Made by a program: the position numbers and the translations under genes. Positions 52,161-62,158 of a DNA stretch of 64,000 nt are shown here, one piece after another. The stretch is from Actinomycetes bacterium (GTDB lineage Bacteria; Actinomycetota; CALGFH01), in NCBI GenBank assembly GCA_036000965.1, contig DASYUT010000063.1, forward strand, positions 1-64,000. Direction: 5' to 3'. The notes under the pieces are model-generated. The model had not been told where the DNA came from. It saw only the letters and a program-made list of their open reading frames with translations, and did not search any database. The stretch's first letter is position 1; each line of letters starts with the position of its first letter.

Positions 52161-55100
52161 CTACCGGGGACGGACGGCCGGCGTGGAAGCGCCGGGCTGC
52201 CGGGCCCGCATGGCCTCGGCCTCGGCCAGGCAGGCGCCGGCCCCGACCTCGCGGTAGAAGGCGGTCGCGGCGGCCAGCTCGGCCTCGCCTTCGGCGACCG
52301 CTCCCGCGGCCCAGGCCCGGCCGGCGGCGGCCAGGCGGGCGTACGCCTCGTCCGGGCGCGACCCGATCCGTGCGTAGACCTCGGCGGCCTGGTGCGGCTC
52401 GCCGGCCACCAGGGCCCGGGCCGCCTCCAGCCAGGCCGAAGGCGGGATCCGGCGGGCGTCGAGCGCCTCGTCCGGGTAGCCGAGCGCGGCCAGCACCGCG
52501 CCCAGGTCGGCGCCGAGGTCCGGCCCGAGGGCGCTCCCGCCGAGCCCGGCCAGCAGCTCGTCGGCGGTCCGTCTGGCCGCGTCGGTCCGGCCGGCGGCCA
52601 GCAGGGCGCGGGCGCCGAAGGCTCGGGCCGGGTTGAGGGCCTGCGGGTCGGCCGCATCCGTGGCCAGCGCCAGCGCCGCCTGGGCGTCCTCCAGGGCCGC
52701 GTCGACCCGGCCGCGGGCGAGGCGGATGCGGCCGCGCCAGACGCGGCACTCCCATTCCAGGTAGTGGCGTTCCCGGTCGTCCCCGGCCAGGTCCTCGTCG
52801 ACGATGCGCACCGCCTCGTCCCAGCGGCCGGCCCAGTAGCACTCGGCGACCCGCTGCAGCGCGATCGAGCGCAGCCGCCGCATCGACCCGAACCGCCCTG
52901 CCGCCCGCGACGCGGCCGACAGGGCGGCCGAGGAGCGGACGAGGTCACCGAGGGCGGCGTGGGCATAGGCGAGGTTGAGGTGCCACACGATCGACCCGGG
53001 GGAGGAGAGCGACTCGAGGATCGCTGTGGCGCGCTCGAGGTCGGCCAGGCCGCGGGCGTCGCCGGCGTCGACCCGGGCCAGCCCGATCGTGCCGATGGCG
53101 TCGGCCTCGAGGTCGTGGAGCCCGAGGCCTCCGGCCATGGCGAGCACCTCCTCGGCGACGCCGTGGGCCTCGGCGTGCCTGCTGGCGATCACCAGGTGCA
53201 TCATGCAGCCTTTGAGCACCGCGGCCTTGGAGCGGGAGGGCGGGGCGTCGGCGGCCAGCGCGAGCGCCCGGTCCAGGCGGGCGGCCCGCTCCTCACCCCG
53301 GCCGTGCAGGAATGCGAGCTCGCCGAGCAGCATCTCGGCCTCGGCCGCGAGCGCCCGCTCGCCCCCTGCCAGGAGTCCGTCCCTGGCCCTGGCGAGCTCC
53401 TCCTGCCCGGCGCCCTCACCCTGGCAGCGGGCGCGCCCGAGGCGCAGCTCGAGCGCTGGCAGCTCGGGGTCGCCGGGCGGGCAGAGGTCCCTGGCCTGGG
53501 CGTGGTAGCGGGCCGCGGTCGCCCAGGCGCCGAGCGCCGCGGCCCGGTCGCCCGCGTCCCGGAGGGCGGCCCGGGCGCGGTCGGCCAGGCCCGGCACGTC
53601 CTGCCCGGCGGCCCGGGCGAAGCCGAGCGCGGCCTGGTAGTGATAGGCGAGCAGCTCGGCGCGGTCCTCGGCGCGGTCGGAGGCGAGCGCCTCGATCCAG
53701 GCGGCGGCCCGGCGGTGCTTGCCGGCCCGTTCGGCCCGCACGATCTGCCCGTAGGCGACGTCGCGCACGAGCACGTGGCTGAACGCGTACTCGACCTCGC
53801 CGGCGACCCGGGACCGCCAGGCCCGGTGCAGCAGCTCGCGCTGCTCGAGCCGGCGCAGGCGGGCCTCGAGGCCGGCCCGCTCGTGGTGACCGATCTCGGT
53901 GAGCGCCCCCACCCACCCGGCCTGGCCGAGCACGGCGGCGTCCTGCAGCACGGCCTTCTCCCCGGGCGGCAGGGCGTCGAGGCGGGCAGCGACGATCGCG
54001 TGCACGGTCTCGGGGATGGCTGCCGCGCTGGCCGAGGCTTCGCGGTCGCCGTGCGGCCCCATGGCCCCGCGGTCGCGCAGCATGCGCACGTACTCCTCGG
54101 CGAACAGCGGGTTGCCGCCGACCCGGGCCAGCAGCGCCGGCTCGACGGTCCCGGGCAGCCCGTGGCGGGCCAGGAGGGCCTCGAGCAGCTGGCCGGTGTC
54201 ACGGTCGGAGAGCGGCTCGAGGGCGACCAGGCTGCGGGTGGCTGCCGTGCCCGGCCTGCGGGTGTCCGCGGTGCCCGGGCCGGGGGTGGCTGCCGTGCCC
54301 AGCCTGCGGGTGTCCGCGGTGCCCGGGCCGGGGGTGGCTGCCGTGCCCGGGCCGGGGGCGTCCGCGTCGTCGCGCGGGCCGGCCGCCCAGTCCGGCCGGC
54401 GCTCGAGCAGCTCGGGCCGGGCGGTGGCCACGACGAGCAGCGGGATGGGGCCCGCCTCGGCCGGGGCCTGTGGGGCGGCCAGGCGCTCCAGGAAGTCAAG
54501 CAAGGCGTCGTCGGCCCAGTGCAGGTCCTCGACGGCCAGAACGAGCGGGCGGCGCCGGGCCAGCCCGTACAGGAAGCGCCGCCAGGCGGCGAAGGCCTCC
54601 TCGCGGTCGCCCGAGGCCGGCCCCGCCGGCGCGCTCGCCCCGACGAGCCGGCGGAGCTTCCCGGCCACCCAGGTCGCGACGTCGGGGTCGGGCACGGCGG
54701 CGGCTGCGGCCCGGGCCAGCTTCCGCTCCGCCTGCGCGGCGGTGTCGGTCTCGAGAATGCCCGCCTGGGCCTTGACGATCATCGACAGCGCCCAGAAGGT
54801 CACCCCGTGGCCGTAGGGCAGGGAGCAGCCCTGGCACCAGGTGGCCGGGTCGGTGCCGGCGCGGACCCGGCCGGCCAGCTCGGCCACCAGCCGGCTCTTG
54901 CCGATGCCGGGCGGGCCGACCAGGGTGACCAGGTGCGGCGTGCCGCTGCCGCGGGCGGTCTCGAAGCGGTCCAGCAGCAGCCCGAGCTCGCGGGTGCGGG
55001 CCACCAGCGGGTGGGAGGGCCGCTGCCCGGCCTGTTCAACGGGGTCGGTGCGCAGCCCGAGCGCGCTCCACACCGCGACCGGCTGGCCCCCGCCGAGGGC

Positions 55101-55646
55101 GATGGCACCGGCCGGCGCGTAGCTGACGGTCCGCTCGGTGGCCCGCCCGGTCGCCTCGGTGACCAGCACGGCGCCCTCCCGCTGGATCTCCAGCAGGCGG
55201 GCGCAGACGGTGACGGGATCGCCGAGCACCCGCTGGCGGCCGGCGGCGGCCGTCCCGGGGCGGACCAGCGCCTCGCCGGTGGCGACCGCGACGTGCAGCC
55301 GCACCCCTGGACCGGTCCGGGGGTCCGGCCCGCCCAGGCCGGGGCTGCTCAGGGCGTCGCGGATCGCGAGCGCGGCGCGCACCGCACGCTCCGGGTCGTC
55401 GGTGCGGGTGCGCGGGACCCCGAACACGGCCACCGTGCGACCGCCGACGGTCTGCTCGACCGTGCCGCCGAACGCCTCGACCTCGGCCCGGACCCGCGCG
55501 AGGTGGCGGGCGAGCGTCCGCGCCACGTCCTCGGGGTCGGGCTCTGTGAAGTCCTCGACCGCCTCGTCCACGTCAGCGAGTAGCACGGTGACGAGCTTGC
55601 GCTCGGCCCCTGGCGGGGCGACGCCGGGCGGAGCGGGCTCACCCAT
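52161..55646 (-). CDS. Giant regulator: degenerate class III cyclase domain + AAA ATPase + TPR
   Basis: 1161 residues from the ATG at 55646. An N-terminal class III nucleotidyl cyclase-like domain (KLVTVLLADVDEAVEDF, FGGTVEQTVGGRTVAVFGVP, DDPERAVRAALAIRDAL) is followed by an AAA/STAND ATPase. The ATPase shows Walker A LVGPPGIGKSRLVAEL, Walker B LVLAVEDLHWADDALLDFL and FAEEYVRMLRDRG. About 500 residues of TPR-like helices follow. The second metal aspartate of true cyclases (GDG...) is replaced by GG, and in motif 1 only D-V-D remains, so catalysis is doubtful. A 24-bp minisatellite lies between residues 425 and 475. It is a paralogue of the gene at 57635, which adds a BTAD domain. The target is unknown. 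Confidence 0.85.
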   Translation of the reverse strand: MGEPAPPGVAPPGAERKLVTVLLADVDEAVEDFTEPDPEDVARTLARHLARVRAEVEAFGGTVEQTVGGRTVAVFGVPRTRTDDPERAVRAALAIRDALSSPGLGGPDPRTGPGVRLHVAVATGEALVRPGTAAAGRQRVLGDPVTVCARLLEIQREGAVLVTEATGRATERTVSYAPAGAIALGGGQPVAVWSALGLRTDPVEQAGQRPSHPLVARTRELGLLLDRFETARGSGTPHLVTLVGPPGIGKSRLVAELAGRVRAGTDPATWCQGCSLPYGHGVTFWALSMIVKAQAGILETDTAAQAERKLARAAAAAVPDPDVATWVAGKLRRLVGASAPAGPASGDREEAFAAWRRFLYGLARRRPLVLAVEDLHWADDALLDFLERLAAPQAPAEAGPIPLLVVATARPELLERRPDWAAGPRDDADAPGPGTAATPGPGTADTRRLGTAATPGPGTADTRRPGTAATRSLVALEPLSDRDTGQLLEALLARHGLPGTVEPALLARVGGNPLFAEEYVRMLRDRGAMGPHGDREASASAAAIPETVHAIVAARLDALPPGEKAVLQDAAVLGQAGWVGALTEIGHHERAGLEARLRRLEQRELLHRAWRSRVAGEVEYAFSHVLVRDVAYGQIVRAERAGKHRRAAAWIEALASDRAEDRAELLAYHYQAALGFARAAGQDVPGLADRARAALRDAGDRAAALGAWATAARYHAQARDLCPPGDPELPALELRLGRARCQGEGAGQEELARARDGLLAGGERALAAEAEMLLGELAFLHGRGEERAARLDRALALAADAPPSRSKAAVLKGCMMHLVIASRHAEAHGVAEEVLAMAGGLGLHDLEADAIGTIGLARVDAGDARGLADLERATAILESLSSPGSIVWHLNLAYAHAALGDLVRSSAALSAASRAAGRFGSMRRLRSIALQRVAECYWAGRWDEAVRIVDEDLAGDDRERHYLEWECRVWRGRIRLARGRVDAALEDAQAALALATDAADPQALNPARAFGARALLAAGRTDAARRTADELLAGLGGSALGPDLGADLGAVLAALGYPDEALDARRIPPSAWLEAARALVAGEPHQAAEVYARIGSRPDEAYARLAAAGRAWAAGAVAEGEAELAAATAFYREVGAGACLAEAEAMRARQPGASTPAVRPR
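54238..54360 (-). repeat. 24-bp minisatellite inside the AAA regulator
   Basis: Five in-frame 8-residue units related to PGPGTAAT, PGPGTADT, RRLGTAAT, PGPGTADT and RRPGTAAT, ending at RSLVALEPLS. The paralogue has no such insert. Confidence 0.8.
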
Positions 55647-55792
55647 GACGGCTCCTCGGTCGCCGGCCGCGGCCGGCCGCACGCGCCCCGGCGTCGCGAC
55701 CGGCTCCGATGCCCTAAAGCGTAGTCGCCCGGCGCCGTGCCCGTCGTGCCCTCGGGGCTTCCCACCGGTGGAGGCCACCCCGCACGCGGAAC

Positions 55793-55822
55793 GGGTGCGC
55801 CCGGTGGTCACCGGGCGCACCC
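55793..55822. terminator. Terminator between the giant regulator and the small membrane gene
   Basis: GGGTGCGCCCGGTG (55793-55806) and CACCGGGCGCACCC (55809-55822), perfect 14-bp stem with a 2-base loop. It lies downstream of the 55856-56059 gene on the minus strand. Confidence 0.7.
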
Positions 55823-55855: not shown

Positions 55856-56059
55856 TTACCCCCACACGATCTTCGAGGGTGCGAAGACCAGGAGCGCGAC
55901 GGCGGCCCAGACCGCGGCGGCGTACCCCGCCCGCAGGGCTGGGCCGTCGGTGAGCCAGTGCTTGGAGCAGAGCAGGGCGTGCTGGATGCGGCTGCTCATG
56001 GTCGCGAAGACCATGAGCATGACCGTGAGGACGGCCCGCAGGGGGCGGGTGGGAAGCAT
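55856..56059 (-). CDS. Small two-helix membrane protein
   Basis: 67 residues from the ATG at 56059 behind CCCGGAGGTGCCC. Helices: PLRAVLTVMLMVFATMSSRI and AGYAAAVWAAVALLVFAPSK, separated by HALLCSKHWLTDGPALR. No family is recognised. Its upstream region carries operator A and another palindrome, so it is likely a target of the TetR at 56940. Confidence 0.7.
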   Translation of the reverse strand: MLPTRPLRAVLTVMLMVFATMSSRIQHALLCSKHWLTDGPALRAGYAAAVWAAVALLVFAPSKIVWG

Positions 56060-56126
56060 GGGCACCTCCGGGTCGTGCCGAGCTTGCCGTGAGCGGCGCC
56101 ACCCTCGCGCTGTACGAGGTGGTGAT

Positions 56127-56142
56127 AGAGAACGTTATCTCT
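56127..56142. promoter_or_regulatory. TetR operator A
   Basis: AGAGAACGTTATCTCT, inverted repeat. Extended match GATAGAGA-n-CGTTATCTCT with operator B. Confidence 0.65.
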
Positions 56143-56162
56143 CAGGGGCGCGGCTGTATAGG

Positions 56163-56184
56163 ACTAGACATACGTTTGTCTAGT
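56163..56184. promoter_or_regulatory. Separate perfect palindrome
   Basis: ACTAGACA (56163-56170) and TGTCTAGT (56177-56184) around TACGTT. Typical of TetR/AcrR operators, but different from operators A-C. Confidence 0.6.
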
Positions 56185-56272
56185 AACGATTTATTAAAAG
56201 TGCGCAGAAATGAGCAAGCGAAACGAGGGCCCTGCCGGCTCGGTGTGCTCCGGGGACGCAGAGTCATATGAT

Positions 56273-56288
56273 AGAGATCGTTATCTCT
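56273..56288. promoter_or_regulatory. TetR operator B
   Basis: AGAGATCGTTATCTCT, with perfect arms TAGAGAT/ATCTCTA around CGTT, immediately after a TATGAT -10. Confidence 0.65.
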
Positions 56289-56471
56289 AAGTCAAGGGTC
56301 AAGCGGCTGCGCCAGGCGTTGGGCGCCGACGTCCTCGCAGCTCAGCAAGGCAGTGGAGGGGCCGTGACTTGCATCTGGCGGCATCCAGATAGAAGGATGT
56401 CCCGGACCTTTGCCCCTTTCGATTCAAGCGTCCGATCTACGCCGCAGACAGCGTCCTCGCAGGGCAGTGGC

Positions 56472-56900
56472 ATGGCCAACACCAACAATGACCGCAGACC
56501 CACGACCCTTCAGCAGTCGAGCGAGCGGTGGCTCGAATGGCTGGGGCAGGAACTCGCGTACCGCGGGAGCACGCCGCGGTCGCGGCTGCTCGTCCTGTGG
56601 GACGTGCTTGAGGAGTGGTTCGCGACCGACGAGTTCCACGTCTCGGCAGTGACCGCCGCCACCGCCGGGCCGCGACGCGACCCGGGGGATCCGGTGATCG
56701 CGGCCCACCGGCAGGCCATGCGCCAGCTGCTCGAGGACCTGGCCAACGCGGCCGGCGTCCGCGATCCCGCCGGGCTCGCCGTCCAGCTCCAGGTGCTGGT
56801 CGAGGGGACCATCGTGGGCGCCCTGGTCGACCGTGAGCCGAGGCTGGCCAGGCACGCGCGCGAGCTGACCGAGATCGCCCTGGACGACGGGCCGGGCTGA
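56472..56900 (+). CDS. HTH-less TetR-like ligand-domain protein
   Basis: 142 residues from the ATG at 56472 (MANTNNDRRPTTLQQSSERW). The whole sequence corresponds to the C-terminal (ligand/dimer) domain of the TetR at 56940-57509: LWDVLEEWFATDEFH versus LWDVLEEWFAADDFH, and VIAAHRQAMRQLLEDLANAA versus the same with LAKAA. No helix-turn-helix precedes it in frame. It is convergent with its paralogue. It could form inactive heterodimers or bind the ligand; that is inference. Confidence 0.75.
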   Translation: MANTNNDRRPTTLQQSSERWLEWLGQELAYRGSTPRSRLLVLWDVLEEWFATDEFHVSAVTAATAGPRRDPGDPVIAAHRQAMRQLLEDLANAAGVRDPAGLAVQLQVLVEGTIVGALVDREPRLARHARELTEIALDDGPG

Positions 56901-56939
56901 GCGGGCACGCGTGCCGCGCGGTCGCGGGGGTGGGTGCCG

Positions 56940-57509
56940 CTACGACGAGCTGGCGACCAGAGCGGCGTTCGCGAGCTGCCGGGCGCTGCGGGCCGCGCCG
57001 GGCCGGCGGTCGACGGTCGCGGTGGCCACGGCGCCGTCGATCAGCACCTGGAGCTGGGCGGCCAGGATCGCCGCGTCGTAGGCGCTGGCCGCCTTGGCCA
57101 GGTCCTCGAGCAGCTGGCGCATGGCCTGCCGGTGGGCCGCGATCACCTTGTGGCCGGGATGCTCGGGCTCGCTGCGCAGCTCGGCGGCGGCATTGGTCAC
57201 GAAGGAGCCGTGGAAGTCGTCGGCCGCGAACCACTCCTCAAGCACGTCCCACAGGGCCGCGAAACGGGCCTCGGGGTCGTCTCCGGACCGGTCGAGCTTG
57301 TCGGCCAGCCAGTGCAGCCACTGGGTGCTCCACTGCTCGAGGGTGGACGCGACCAGCTCGTCCTTGCTCCCGAACTGCCGGTAGAGCGTCATGGGAGCCA
57401 CGTCCGCTTCCGCGATGATGCGGTTCACGCCGACGGCGAGGACACCCTCCCGGTAGAACAGCGTGGTGGCCGTCGAAAGGATGCGGTCACGGGGCTTTGA
57501 GAGCACCAT
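56940..57509 (-). CDS. TetR family transcriptional regulator
   Basis: 189 residues from the ATG at 57509 (MVLSKPRDRILSTA). HTH: ILSTATTLFYREGVLAVGVN, IIAEADVAPMTLYRQFGSKD. The C-terminal domain (LWDVLEEWFAADDFHGSFVT, HKVIAAHRQAMRQLLEDLAK) is shared with the HTH-less protein next door. Operator C lies 35 bp upstream of the start, and operators A and B control the neighbouring promoters, which suggests autoregulation and a local regulon. An ATG at 57536 is an alternative start. Confidence 0.9.
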   Translation of the reverse strand: MVLSKPRDRILSTATTLFYREGVLAVGVNRIIAEADVAPMTLYRQFGSKDELVASTLEQWSTQWLHWLADKLDRSGDDPEARFAALWDVLEEWFAADDFHGSFVTNAAAELRSEPEHPGHKVIAAHRQAMRQLLEDLAKAASAYDAAILAAQLQVLIDGAVATATVDRRPGAARSARQLANAALVASSS

Positions 57510-57544
57510 GAGGGCAAGCCTACTCCTTGCTGACATGGAGATCG

Positions 57545-57560
57545 AGAGAAAGTTTTCTCT
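57545..57560. promoter_or_regulatory. TetR operator C (autoregulatory)
   Basis: AGAGAAAGTTTTCTCT within an 18-bp palindrome (57544-57561). It matches operators A and B at 14 and 13 of 16 positions and lies just upstream of the TetR gene. Confidence 0.65.
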
Positions 57561-57634
57561 CCCAGAGAAGCATTGTTCGCCTCGTTCGCCCTGGTTCGTC
57601 CAGAAGTGCACGTGAACAGCTTTTCACCGCAGCT

Positions 57635-60600
57635 TCATCCCACTGTGACCAGCAGTTTCTCCGCTTCGTCGAGGTAGGCGCTGGCCCCTGCCTCACGGAA
57701 GAAGCCGAGGGCGGCCCCGAGCCGCCGCTGGGCGCCGGCCGGGTCCGCCTCCAGCTGCCGGCGGGCGGCCTCCAAGCGGGCGTAGGCGGCGTCGGGCCGC
57801 GAGCCGATCGCCTCGTAGGTCGCGGCTGCCAGGCCGGGCTCCCCGGCGACGAACGCCCGGGCCGCCTCGAGCCAGGGCGAGGGCAGGGCCCTGTTGAGCA
57901 CGCTCGCCGGATGCCCCAGCATGACCAGGTCGACCGCGAGGTCCACGCCCAGGTCGGGCTTGAGCAGCCGACCGCCGAGCCCGGCGAGGAGCTCGTCGAC
58001 GAGTGGGCGGGCCTCGCCGGCGCGCCCGGCGGCCAGTAGCGCGCGGGCGCCGAAGGCGAACGCGGGATCCAGGTTCTGCGGGTCGCCCGACTCCCGGGCC
58101 AGCCGCAGGGCCTGCCCGGCGTCCTCGACCGCCGCGCCGACCTCCCCGCGGGCGAGCAGGATGCGGCCGCGCCAGATCCGGCACTCGCACTCCATGTAGT
58201 GCGGGGTGCCGCCCGCCGTCTCGGCGACCAGCGCGTTCACGGTCCGCGCGGCATCGTCCCAGCGCCCGGTCCAGTAGTGCTCGGCCACCCGTTCGAGGCC
58301 GATCCAGCGCAGGTGGCGGTCGGTCCCGTGGCGCTCCGCGGCCCGCCAGGCCGCCGCCCTGGTCGCGAAGCAGCGCGGCAGGTCGCCGAGCATCGCGTGC
58401 ACGAAGGCCATGCTGGTGAGCCAGGGCACCGCGTCGAACGAGCCCAGCTCCTCGCAGATCTCGATGCAGCGCTCGAGGTCGGCGATGCCGCCGGGGTCGC
58501 CGGTCATCACCCTGGCTGCCCCGGAGGTCCCGAACGCGACCGCCTCGACCTCCCGCAGCCCGAGCTCCCGTGCCATCGCGAGCGCCTTGCCGGCCACCTG
58601 GATGGCCTCGGCGTGACGTTCGGCGACCAGCAGGTGCATCATGCAGCCCTTCAGCACGGCGGCCGTCGACGGGGAGGAGGGCAGGCCGTCGACCAGCGCC
58701 AGGGCGCGGCTCACGTGGTCGGAGCGCTTGCGCCCGTGCACGAACGCGAGCTGGCCGAGCAGCACCTCGGCCTCGGCCGCGCGACCCCGGTCGCCCGCGG
58801 CGAGCAGGCCGTCGCGGGCCCGGGCCAGCAGGTCTTCGCCGCCCCCGTCGGCGTGGCAGTGGGCCGCCCCGGCCCGGAGCTCCAGTTCGGCCCGCTCGAG
58901 CTCGCCGGCCGGCCCGAGCTCGCCGGCCGGCCCGAGCTCCAGCGCCTGGGCGTAGTAGCGGGCTGCCTTGGCATGGACGCCGAGGGCGGTCACCCGGTCA
59001 CCCGCGTTGCACAGGGCCAGGCGGGCCCGCTCGGCCAGCTCCCCGTCGCCCCGGCCGGCGGCCCGAGCAAAGCCCAGCGCCTGGAGGTAGTGGTGGGCGA
59101 GCAGCTCGGCCAGGCCGGCGGCCCGGTGCTCGGGCCGGCCCTCGACGCGGTCGGTGGCCAGGGACTCGAGCCAGGCCGCGGCCCGGCGGTGCCGCTCGGC
59201 CCGCTCGGCCCGGGGGATCTGCCCGTAGGCCACCTCGCGGACGAGCACGTGCCTGAACAGGTACTCGCGCTCGCCGGCCACGGTGGACCGTCCCGCCCGG
59301 TACAGGAACTCCCGCTGCTCGAGGCGCTCGAGGCAGGCCTCGAGCTTGGCCCGGTCGTGGTGGCCGACGGCGGCCACGGCACCGACCCAGGCGGACCGGC
59401 CGAGCACGGCTGCGTCCTGGAGCACGGCCTTGTCCTCGGCCGGGAGGGTGTCCAGGCGGGCGGCGACGATCGCGTGCACGGTCTCGGGCAGCGGCAGCTC
59501 CGGCTGGGCCCGGGGCAGGCCGTCCCGGCCCGCGGGCGGCCCGGCGTCCCGTGGCTGGTGCGGCTCGGGGCCGGCCCTGCCGCGGTCGCGCAGCATGCGC
59601 ACGTACTCCTCGGCGAACAGCGGGTTGCCGCCGACCCGGGCCAGCAGGTCCGGGTCGACCGCGCCGGGGAGCTGGTGGTGGGCGAGCAGGGCGCCGAGCA
59701 GGCAGGTGGTGTCGGCCGCCGACAGCGGTTCGAGGCCGACCGTGGTGGCCGCTGGATGGCGGCCCCAGGCCGGCCGGCGCTCGAGCAGCTCCGGGCGGGC
59801 GGTGGCCAGGACCAGCAGGGTGGCTGAGCGCGCCGGGTCCACCGGGTCGAGCAGGCGCTCGAGGAAGTCGAGCAGGTCGTCGTCGGCCCAGTGCAGGTCC
59901 TCCACGACCAGGACCAGCGGCCGGCGGGCGGCCAGGCCCTCCAGGAACCGGCGCCAGGCGGCGAACGCCTCCTCCTGGCGGCCGGCCTGCAGCGGCTGCC
60001 CGCTGCCGGCCCCGACGAGCAGGCGCAGGTGCCCGGTCACCCAGCCGGCGGCGGCCGGGTCGTGGGGCAGGGCGTGGCCGACGGCTTGCGCGAGCTTGCG
60101 GTCGACCCGCTCGCCGGTGTCGGTCTCGAGGATGCCCGCCTCCGCCTTGACGATCTCGCCGAGCGCCGAGAAGGTCACGCCCTGCCCGTAGGGCTGCGAG
60201 CGACCCTCGCGCCAGCCGGTGAGGTCCCGGTCGACCTCGAGGGCGCGTCCCAGCTCGGCCACCAGGCGGGTCTTGCCGATCCCTGGCGGGCCGACCAGGG
60301 TCACGAGCTGCGGGCCGCAGGTCGCGCGGGCACGCTCGAACGAACCGAGCAGCGTGCGCAGCTCGCCTTCGCGCCCGACCAGGGGTACGGGGGTCCCGGT
60401 CAGGGCGTCCAGCCCCGCTCGCCGGCACGGCTCGAGCGCGCTCCAGACCGTGGCCGGCTTGGCCCGCCCGCTGAGCCCGAGCAGGCTGGCCGGGCCGTAG
60501 CTGATCGTCCGCCTGGTGGCCCGCTCGGTCGCCTCCGAGACCAGCACCGTCCCGGCCGGCGCGGCCTGCTGCAGCCGGGCGCAGGTGGCCACCAGGTCGC

Positions 60601-61846
60601 CGTTGACCCGGCCGGTCCCGGCCGTCACCAGCGCCTCGCCGCTGGTGACCGAGATGCGCAGCTCCACGCCGGAGGTGGAGAGGCGCGCCCAGTGCTTTCC
60701 GGGGCCGCGCTCCTCGGCGCCGGAAAGCGCGTCGCGGATGGCAAGCGCGGCCCGCACGGCCCGCTCCGGGTCGTCATCTCTCGTGTGGGGGACGCCGAAC
60801 ACGGCCATGGTCGTGCCCCCGATGGTGTGCTCGACCGTGCCGCCGAAGCTGGCCACCTCGGCCCAGACCCGTTCGAGGTGGCGCTCCAGCATGCTCGACA
60901 CGTCCTCGGGGTCGCGCTCGCCGGCCTCGCCAGCGGGCTCGTCGACGTCGGCGAACAGCACGGTGACGAGCTTGCGCTCGGTCGGGCCGAACGCCTCGAC
61001 CCGGGCCTCGCCGGCCAGCCGGTGCTCGTCCTCCCCTGCGGCGGCGTCGTCGGCCGCGCGGGCCGGGACGAGCAGGTCGAGCGCCGGGTCCTGGGCCAGG
61101 ATCGCCTGCTCGAGGCGTTGCAGGCCCACGCTCGGCTCGATGCCCAGCTCCCCGACGAGGGTGCGCCTGGCCTCCCGGTAGGCGGCCAGGGCGTCGGCCT
61201 GCCTGCCCGAGCGGTACAGGGCGAGCATGAGCTGGCCGTGGAGCTGCTCGCGCAGCGGGTGCCGGCGGATGAGGGCCTCCAGCTCGCCGGCGAGCTCGTG
61301 GTGGCGGCCGAGGGCGAGGTCGGCCTCGATCCGGGTCTCGAGCGCGGCCACGCGCAGCTCGTCGACCCCGACCAGCTCCGGCCAGGCCGCGTCGGCCGCC
61401 GCGGCGACGTCGGCCAGGACGGGGCCGCGCCAAAGCGACAGCGCCTCCCTCAGCACGCTCGCCGCCGTGGCCGCGTCGCCCTCGGCGAGCGCCCGGCGGC
61501 CGTGGCCGACCAGGCGCTGGAAGCGGTGCAGGTCGAGCTGCTCGGGGTCGATCTCGAGCAGGTAGCCGGGGTCGCGGGTGACGAGCATGCGCGGCGGGGG
61601 AGCGCAGCCGGGCTCGATCGCCTTGCGGAGCGCGGCCACGTGGTTCTGCAGCGACTGCCTGACCGTCGGGGGCGGCTCCTCGCCCCAGACCGTGTCGATC
61701 AGCTCGTCGGTGGACACGACCTGGTTCGGGTGGAGGAGGAGCTTGGCCAGGAGCATGCGGTGCTTGATGCTGCCAAGCCGCAGCGCGCGCTGCCGGCGGC
61801 GCGCCTCGAGGGGGCCGAGGACCAGGAAGTCGATCCCGGCCGTCAC
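57635..61846 (-). CDS. SARP/BTAD giant regulator with degenerate cyclase, AAA and TPR domains
   Basis: 1403 residues from the GTG at 61846 (VTAGIDFLVLGPLEA). OmpR-type winged helix (KHRMLLAKLLLHPNQVVSTD, VWGEEPPPTVRQSLQNHVAA), BTAD domain (about 95-245, LDLHRFQRLVGHGRRALAEG, QADALAAYREARRTL), then a class III cyclase-like domain (KLVTVLFADVDEPAG, FGGTVEHTIGGTTMAVFGVP). Next come an AAA/STAND ATPase (LVGPPGIGKTRLVAEL, LVLVVEDLHWADDDLLDFL) and a long TPR-like C-terminus. The cyclase has the same GG-for-GD change as its paralogue at 52161. SARP-type proteins activate secondary-metabolite or developmental genes; no such cluster is adjacent. It is monocistronic here, and its target is unknown. Confidence 0.88.
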   Translation of the reverse strand: MTAGIDFLVLGPLEARRRQRALRLGSIKHRMLLAKLLLHPNQVVSTDELIDTVWGEEPPPTVRQSLQNHVAALRKAIEPGCAPPPRMLVTRDPGYLLEIDPEQLDLHRFQRLVGHGRRALAEGDAATAASVLREALSLWRGPVLADVAAAADAAWPELVGVDELRVAALETRIEADLALGRHHELAGELEALIRRHPLREQLHGQLMLALYRSGRQADALAAYREARRTLVGELGIEPSVGLQRLEQAILAQDPALDLLVPARAADDAAAGEDEHRLAGEARVEAFGPTERKLVTVLFADVDEPAGEAGERDPEDVSSMLERHLERVWAEVASFGGTVEHTIGGTTMAVFGVPHTRDDDPERAVRAALAIRDALSGAEERGPGKHWARLSTSGVELRISVTSGEALVTAGTGRVNGDLVATCARLQQAAPAGTVLVSEATERATRRTISYGPASLLGLSGRAKPATVWSALEPCRRAGLDALTGTPVPLVGREGELRTLLGSFERARATCGPQLVTLVGPPGIGKTRLVAELGRALEVDRDLTGWREGRSQPYGQGVTFSALGEIVKAEAGILETDTGERVDRKLAQAVGHALPHDPAAAGWVTGHLRLLVGAGSGQPLQAGRQEEAFAAWRRFLEGLAARRPLVLVVEDLHWADDDLLDFLERLLDPVDPARSATLLVLATARPELLERRPAWGRHPAATTVGLEPLSAADTTCLLGALLAHHQLPGAVDPDLLARVGGNPLFAEEYVRMLRDRGRAGPEPHQPRDAGPPAGRDGLPRAQPELPLPETVHAIVAARLDTLPAEDKAVLQDAAVLGRSAWVGAVAAVGHHDRAKLEACLERLEQREFLYRAGRSTVAGEREYLFRHVLVREVAYGQIPRAERAERHRRAAAWLESLATDRVEGRPEHRAAGLAELLAHHYLQALGFARAAGRGDGELAERARLALCNAGDRVTALGVHAKAARYYAQALELGPAGELGPAGELERAELELRAGAAHCHADGGGEDLLARARDGLLAAGDRGRAAEAEVLLGQLAFVHGRKRSDHVSRALALVDGLPSSPSTAAVLKGCMMHLLVAERHAEAIQVAGKALAMARELGLREVEAVAFGTSGAARVMTGDPGGIADLERCIEICEELGSFDAVPWLTSMAFVHAMLGDLPRCFATRAAAWRAAERHGTDRHLRWIGLERVAEHYWTGRWDDAARTVNALVAETAGGTPHYMECECRIWRGRILLARGEVGAAVEDAGQALRLARESGDPQNLDPAFAFGARALLAAGRAGEARPLVDELLAGLGGRLLKPDLGVDLAVDLVMLGHPASVLNRALPSPWLEAARAFVAGEPGLAAATYEAIGSRPDAAYARLEAARRQLEADPAGAQRRLGAALGFFREAGASAYLDEAEKLLVTVG

Positions 61847-62158
61847 CCGCGGGCCTCCCCACCGGCGGTGGTGCGCGCCCGCGCGACGGGGTTCCACCGC
61901 CTGGTGGCGGTGGTCCGGCCTGCGGCCACGGGTTGGGTCATACCGACTGCGCTCCCGTGGGGGCGGTGGTCGCCGGGCGCCGTACCGGCCGGGTGCGCCC
62001 ACCGCACCGACGATCGTGGACCGGGCTTGCTGGATGCTCGATGCTGCCTGGGTTGCCTGGATGCTCAGGCACGGAGTCTATGCGCGTTTTGGCAGGGAGT
62101 GTAGAGCCCCCGTCTGGTCGAGGCGGCGCTGCGAGGGCCGCGCCACTCCAACGGACCC

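Follow-up and report, generated by a model that had tools for sequence, protein, structure and literature searches.

The window, a 64,000-nt stretch of DNA, encodes a TetR paralogue without an HTH beside a full-length TetR-family repressor. We tentatively propose, at slightly less than an even chance, that this sibling is an anti-repressor that arose by loss of the DNA-binding domain, was kept across genera within a small class, probably one of the Actinomycetota judging by gene content, and helps to shape induction of a copper operon by forming non-binding heterodimers with the neighbouring repressor within a shared-operator feedback loop. For the narrower proposition, that an autoregulated TetR and its conserved sibling pair into poorly binding dimers that lower the effective repressor dose, we see an even balance of probability. 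The locus comprises the following features:

55856-56065, minus strand: gene for a two-helix membrane protein, 69 aa, with the conserved motif R..QH..L.SKHW
56127-56142, unstranded: operator A, AGAGAACGTTATCTCT, an exact match to AGAGANNGTTNTCTCT
56155-56182, minus strand: TAGACA-16-TATACA, picked out by eye as a possible leftward promoter, followed closely by operator A
56163-56184, unstranded: perfect palindrome ACTAGACATACGTTTGTCTAGT between operators A and B, the only occurrence in the genome
56268-56295, minus strand: sigma70-like promoter TTGACT-16-TATCAT with operator B inside its spacer
56273-56288, unstranded: operator B, AGAGATCGTTATCTCT, an exact match to AGAGANNGTTNTCTCT
56472-56900, plus strand: HTH-less TetR paralogue, 142 aa, helices α4-α9
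56594-56624, plus strand: 31-nt tract in α5, identical to TetR gene positions 57225-57255
56694-56746, plus strand: 53-nt tract in α7, identical to TetR gene positions 57094-57146
56940-57509, minus strand: full-length TetR-family repressor, 189 aa (Pfam TetR_N, AF2 model)
57545-57560, unstranded: operator C, AGAGAAAGTTTTCTCT, an exact match to AGAGANNGTTNTCTCT, 35 nt 5' of the TetR ATG

The full-length protein has both hallmarks of the TetR family, a TetR_N HTH (Pfam PF00440, E=6.9e-12, 45.4 bits against a cut-off of 24) and the nine-helix ligand/dimer fold. Its AF2 model (pLDDT 92) has nine helices, from 6-21 to 172-188, and matches 3g7r with a TM of 0.86. The nearest solved structures, SCO4454 (PDB 3g7r) and SAV143 (3jsj), at 29% and 27% identity, are themselves full-length TetR-family regulators with an HTH; we know of no HTH-less sibling of either. 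The short protein aligns with TetR residues 55-184 at 57% identity, beginning after the HTH position as the first-pass annotation had described, and TetR_N is absent from both its 142-aa and its 210-aa version. Pfam TetR_C_31 scores below threshold (22.2 bits against 27.4). The predicted structure (mean pLDDT 88) contains the full α4-α9 core; the structures it matches best are ligand domains of TetR-family proteins, although the E-values are weak. Judged by this identity and the α4-α9 model, the protein has a TetR C-terminal core; it is TetR-derived, yet not a TetR-type DNA binder. Its reading frame is intact, with no frameshift or internal stop. ATG 56472 is the probable start because the N-termini of two relatives align there and because GC3 is 0.92 from this codon, compared with 0.68 for the upstream codons in frame. 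A start at ATG 56268, which would give the longest possible ORF, is unlikely since operator B would then be part of the coding sequence.

Our sample of the class consists of three genomes, the source genome and two of another genus (G001 and G002), and the HTH-less gene is present in 3/3, spanning both genera. The three short proteins group together (98/93) in a clade whose sister comprises all the full-length proteins of the class; on the simplest account, helices α1-α3 were therefore lost before the genera diverged. A tblastn search at lenient E found no HTH relic upstream of the gene, in any frame, in the three genomes; the tree and this result agree with derivation from a regulator by loss of the DNA-binding domain. 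Between the G001 and G002 genes, third codon positions carry an excess of the differences (22/15/38 by codon position, p=0.004), much as in the full-length paralogues, and NG86 dN/dS is about 0.43 compared with about 0.39 for full-length pairs, a pattern that shows purifying selection. The separate clade, this selection, the intact frame and the missing relic exclude a pseudogene or a recent truncation; the relatives did not carry the gene as a decaying full-length TetR, the outcome that the first-pass annotation had named as fatal to its proposal. The convergent arrangement of sibling and TetR, which it had suggested looking for in relatives, is kept in G001; in G002 sibling and TetR are on separate contigs, and TetR is followed there by unrelated sequence. 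We rejected the idea that HTH-less homologues form a wider family: in a phylum-wide sample of 397 genomes, where the HTH was judged on the best-scoring loci retrieved, all such loci outside the class had one. The matches from one contig scan were limited to a distant relative in Burkholderia and an incomplete hit in an unclassified actinobacterial assembly.

Operators A, B and C lie where the first-pass annotation had placed them. The exact AGAGANNGTTNTCTCT pattern occurs four times in the whole 6.47-Mb genome, against about 0.009 copies expected from base composition: three times at this locus and once 5' of a second full-length TetR gene on contig C150. Thirteen operators from the three genomes share the form AGAGA-N2-GTT-N-TCTCT with few changes. 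Operator C has a counterpart in the same position in G001 and G002, and both relatives carry operators 5' of TetR, of the membrane gene and of a copper operon. Phylogenetic footprinting thus supports the predicted TetR autoregulation and control of the membrane gene. In the third paralogue of the relatives (C416, C119), the operator is altered to AGAGAATGGTCTCTCT and the recognition helix APMTLYRQF becomes APMTVYR(H/K)F. Because operator and helix change together, the clade of the window TetR is the predicted reader of the operator, a reading that the comparison supports. An Rfam search of the region returned no matches.

The small membrane gene (GC3 0.96) has orthologues at L046 (6686-6871) and in L050, with 45% and 41% identity, and an operator upstream in all three genomes; its product has no Pfam match. 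In G001 the order is cyclase/ATPase gene, small membrane gene, operator, CopC-CopD fusion, secreted protein, operator, HTH-less gene (+), TetR (-), operator and large cyclase-domain regulator; G002 shares the first part of this arrangement. The relatives' secreted-protein/CopC-CopD copper operon thus runs divergently from the HTH-less gene, behind an operator. In the window, no such copper cassette separates operators A and B. The cassette's best counterpart in the source genome, on contig C301, has a two-mismatch operator, AGAGATCGCTATCTAT, 39 nt 5' of the secreted-protein ATG, and no operator-like site was found at the other secreted-protein/CopC-CopD copies examined in the three genomes. 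The tree leaves the orthology of the C301 and C335/C228 cassettes unsettled, and orthology rests on the shared operator. The C301 operon (L015, 3991-6522) is transcribed away from a response-regulator gene, past which lies a histidine-kinase-like ORF; dual control of this operon is possible. A secreted-protein paralogue in G002 (L084, contig C746) has an internal TGA stop.

A promoter scan found one sigma70-like promoter, compared with 0.2 expected in shuffles; it points leftward and overlaps operator B. In the relatives, TTGACT abuts the operator on the copper-operon side. Since this promoter, the best that B overlaps, runs leftward and the relatives' TTGACT faces the copper operon, the most plausible role of B is as operator for the leftward unit. 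Operator B lies about 105 to 184 nt from the HTH-less gene (184 nt from the likely start at ATG 56472), and no rightward promoter of that gene was identified. The proposal of the first-pass annotation that one operator type serves the whole circuit therefore divides: the shared operator and the HTH-less sibling are conserved across two genera, whereas action of B on the sibling gene is at most a prediction, given the leftward promoter, the distance and the position facing CopC-CopD in the relatives. The candidate TAGACA-16-TATACA, possibly a leftward promoter upstream of operator A, was missed by the scan. The palindrome ACTAGACATACGTTTGTCTAGT may contain -35 boxes placed back to back or may be bound by another regulator, and G002 has a similar ACTAGTCA-N4-TGACTAGT adjoining an operator. 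The first-pass annotation had overlooked this palindrome, as well as the copper operon and the second TetR gene behind the same operator.

TetR-family proteins dimerise through α8 and α9, and their dimers need two HTHs to hold an operator. A sibling with the dimer core but without the HTH should therefore weaken repression by forming one-headed dimers with TetR. In the mechanism we propose, TetR would repress its own gene, the small membrane gene and the secreted-protein/CopC-CopD operon (adjacent in the relatives, on C301 in the source genome) through the predicted operators. The sibling, which keeps α4-α9 including the α8-α9 interface, would join TetR in dimers with a single DNA-reading head that bind the operator poorly; the resulting drop in repressor dose would make induction faster or softer. 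The signal may be related to copper, as suggested by the target operon alone. The sequence establishes the operators, their regulon layout, the conservation and selection of the sibling and its fold model. Dimerisation with TetR and the antagonistic effect are predictions, in favour of which we count the presence in 3/3 genomes, the separate clade with no HTH relic, the selection and intact frame, the well-folded core, the α8 identity, the gene conversion described below, the convergence with TetR in G001, the operators in both relatives and the C301 site. Helix by helix, the sibling keeps α5, α7 and about half of α8, with 12/22 α8 residues identical to TetR in every genome. The sequence of helix α6 and of the α6-α7 loop, conserved among full-length members, is lost. 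Retention of α8 with loss of the α6 and loop sequence is expected if the sibling no longer passes a signal to an HTH. Against heterodimers, sibling and TetR of one genome share only 6-9/17 residues of α9, the other interface helix, and the sibling could therefore homodimerise instead, and adjacency of the two genes is not universal (G002).

The 53-nt tract is the source of the match at 19 of 20 residues by which the sibling had first been related to the TetR ligand domain. Codon-column shuffling never reproduced this identical run, third codon positions outside the best window agree at 54% between the two genes, and the C150 paralogue has no comparable run. The 53-nt and 31-nt identities between these inverted genes are probably gene-conversion tracts. 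The 19/20 match is present, but as a probable conversion patch it overstates the general similarity of the proteins, which is 57% over the aligned region.

These tracts bear on an unlikely alternative in which the short protein homodimerises, binds TetR's inducer and tunes its free level as a ligand buffer or sensor, leaving TetR alone. Helix α7, likely in the ligand pocket, is identical to TetR at 18/19 positions here and at 13-16/22 in the relatives, and the tree and the selection data fit equally well. However, the near-identity of α7 in this genome coincides with the conversion patch, and the sibling has diverged in α6 and the α6-α7 loop, which are often ligand-responsive in TetR proteins. 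We think it improbable that the short protein is instead a positive partner that binds free or DNA-bound TetR and stabilises repression or bridges another factor. The short gene adjoins regulated targets in 3/3 genomes and the repressor in 2/3, as co-regulators often do, and within the short clade α5 (11-12/17) and α9 (11/17) are conserved across genera; but loss of the HTH yields a poisoned subunit more simply, and the literature searched holds no TetR-family precedent for such a partner.

There is a slim chance that the main target of the short protein is the second repressor, or that this protein links both. That gene (C150, 5041-5610) is the only other close full-length TetR paralogue in the genome (68% identity); it has the operator AGAGACCGTTATCTCT just upstream and the same APMTLYRQF recognition helix as the window TetR. 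Yet the short gene is linked to C150 in none of the genomes, and the shifted operator and changed helix of the relatives' paralogues (C416, C119) speak against such a role. We find it very hard to credit that the short gene is functionless, a remnant left by decay or chance: its N-terminal stretch is poorly conserved and its ribosome-binding site looks weak by eye, but it is conserved across two genera under purifying selection, with an intact frame and high GC3.

The heterodimer reading has its closest described parallel in TrlR of Agrobacterium, a LuxR-family paralogue of TraR that lacks the DNA-binding domain, probably arose by duplication and blocks TraR through inactive heterodimers (PMC3907764). 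Both cases involve a regulator paralogue stripped of its DNA-binding domain; TraR, however, is a plasmid-borne LuxR-type activator, whereas the protein here, for which heterodimers are predicted, derives from a TetR-type repressor with an N-terminal HTH. Being TetR-derived, the short protein lacks LuxR-type domain ancestry and so is not TrlR itself. In the CerN/CerM system of Cereibacter sphaeroides, HTH-less CerN similarly antagonises a full-length member of the LuxR family (PMC11655674), with another fold and signal and no link to copper genes. In E. coli, the TetR-like copper-responsive ComR regulates the membrane protein ComC (PMC7558416). ComR/ComC resembles our system, by description, in tying a TetR-type regulator to copper and a small envelope protein. 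Neither an HTH-less sibling nor a CopC-CopD operon is, to our knowledge, known for it. A literature search, thin on subscription papers, returned no case of a TetR-family partner lacking the DNA-binding domain. The layout, first annotated as lacking any described precedent, is thus new for the TetR family among the papers searched, but TrlR and CerN are precedents in the LuxR family.

The TetR family ranks among the largest groups of bacterial repressors and supplies many of the genetic parts in common use, yet no natural dominant-negative sibling was found in the literature searched. If the proposed mechanism is correct, TetR circuits have a tuning element of their own, and the TrlR mode of action arose a second time, independently, in an unrelated fold. 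The copper-linked regulon of a class represented here by three genomes only also gains a function that can be tested.

Genome sites with one or two operator mismatches occur on C291, C303, C227, C78 and C8, with no clear targets bar an XRE/DUF5753-like gene near C227, where the operator-like TGAGACTGTTATCTAT lies about 130 nt 5' of that gene (L018, 1893-2867). The second TetR gene on C150 is divergent from an XRE/DUF5753 regulator (L014, 3990-5610), and the same pairing occurs on C416 of G001. On either side of the locus the window encodes a large cyclase-domain/ATPase regulator (52161-55820 and 57635-62002), one of which has a SARP-like N-terminus, and a comparable pair occupies the corresponding positions in G001.
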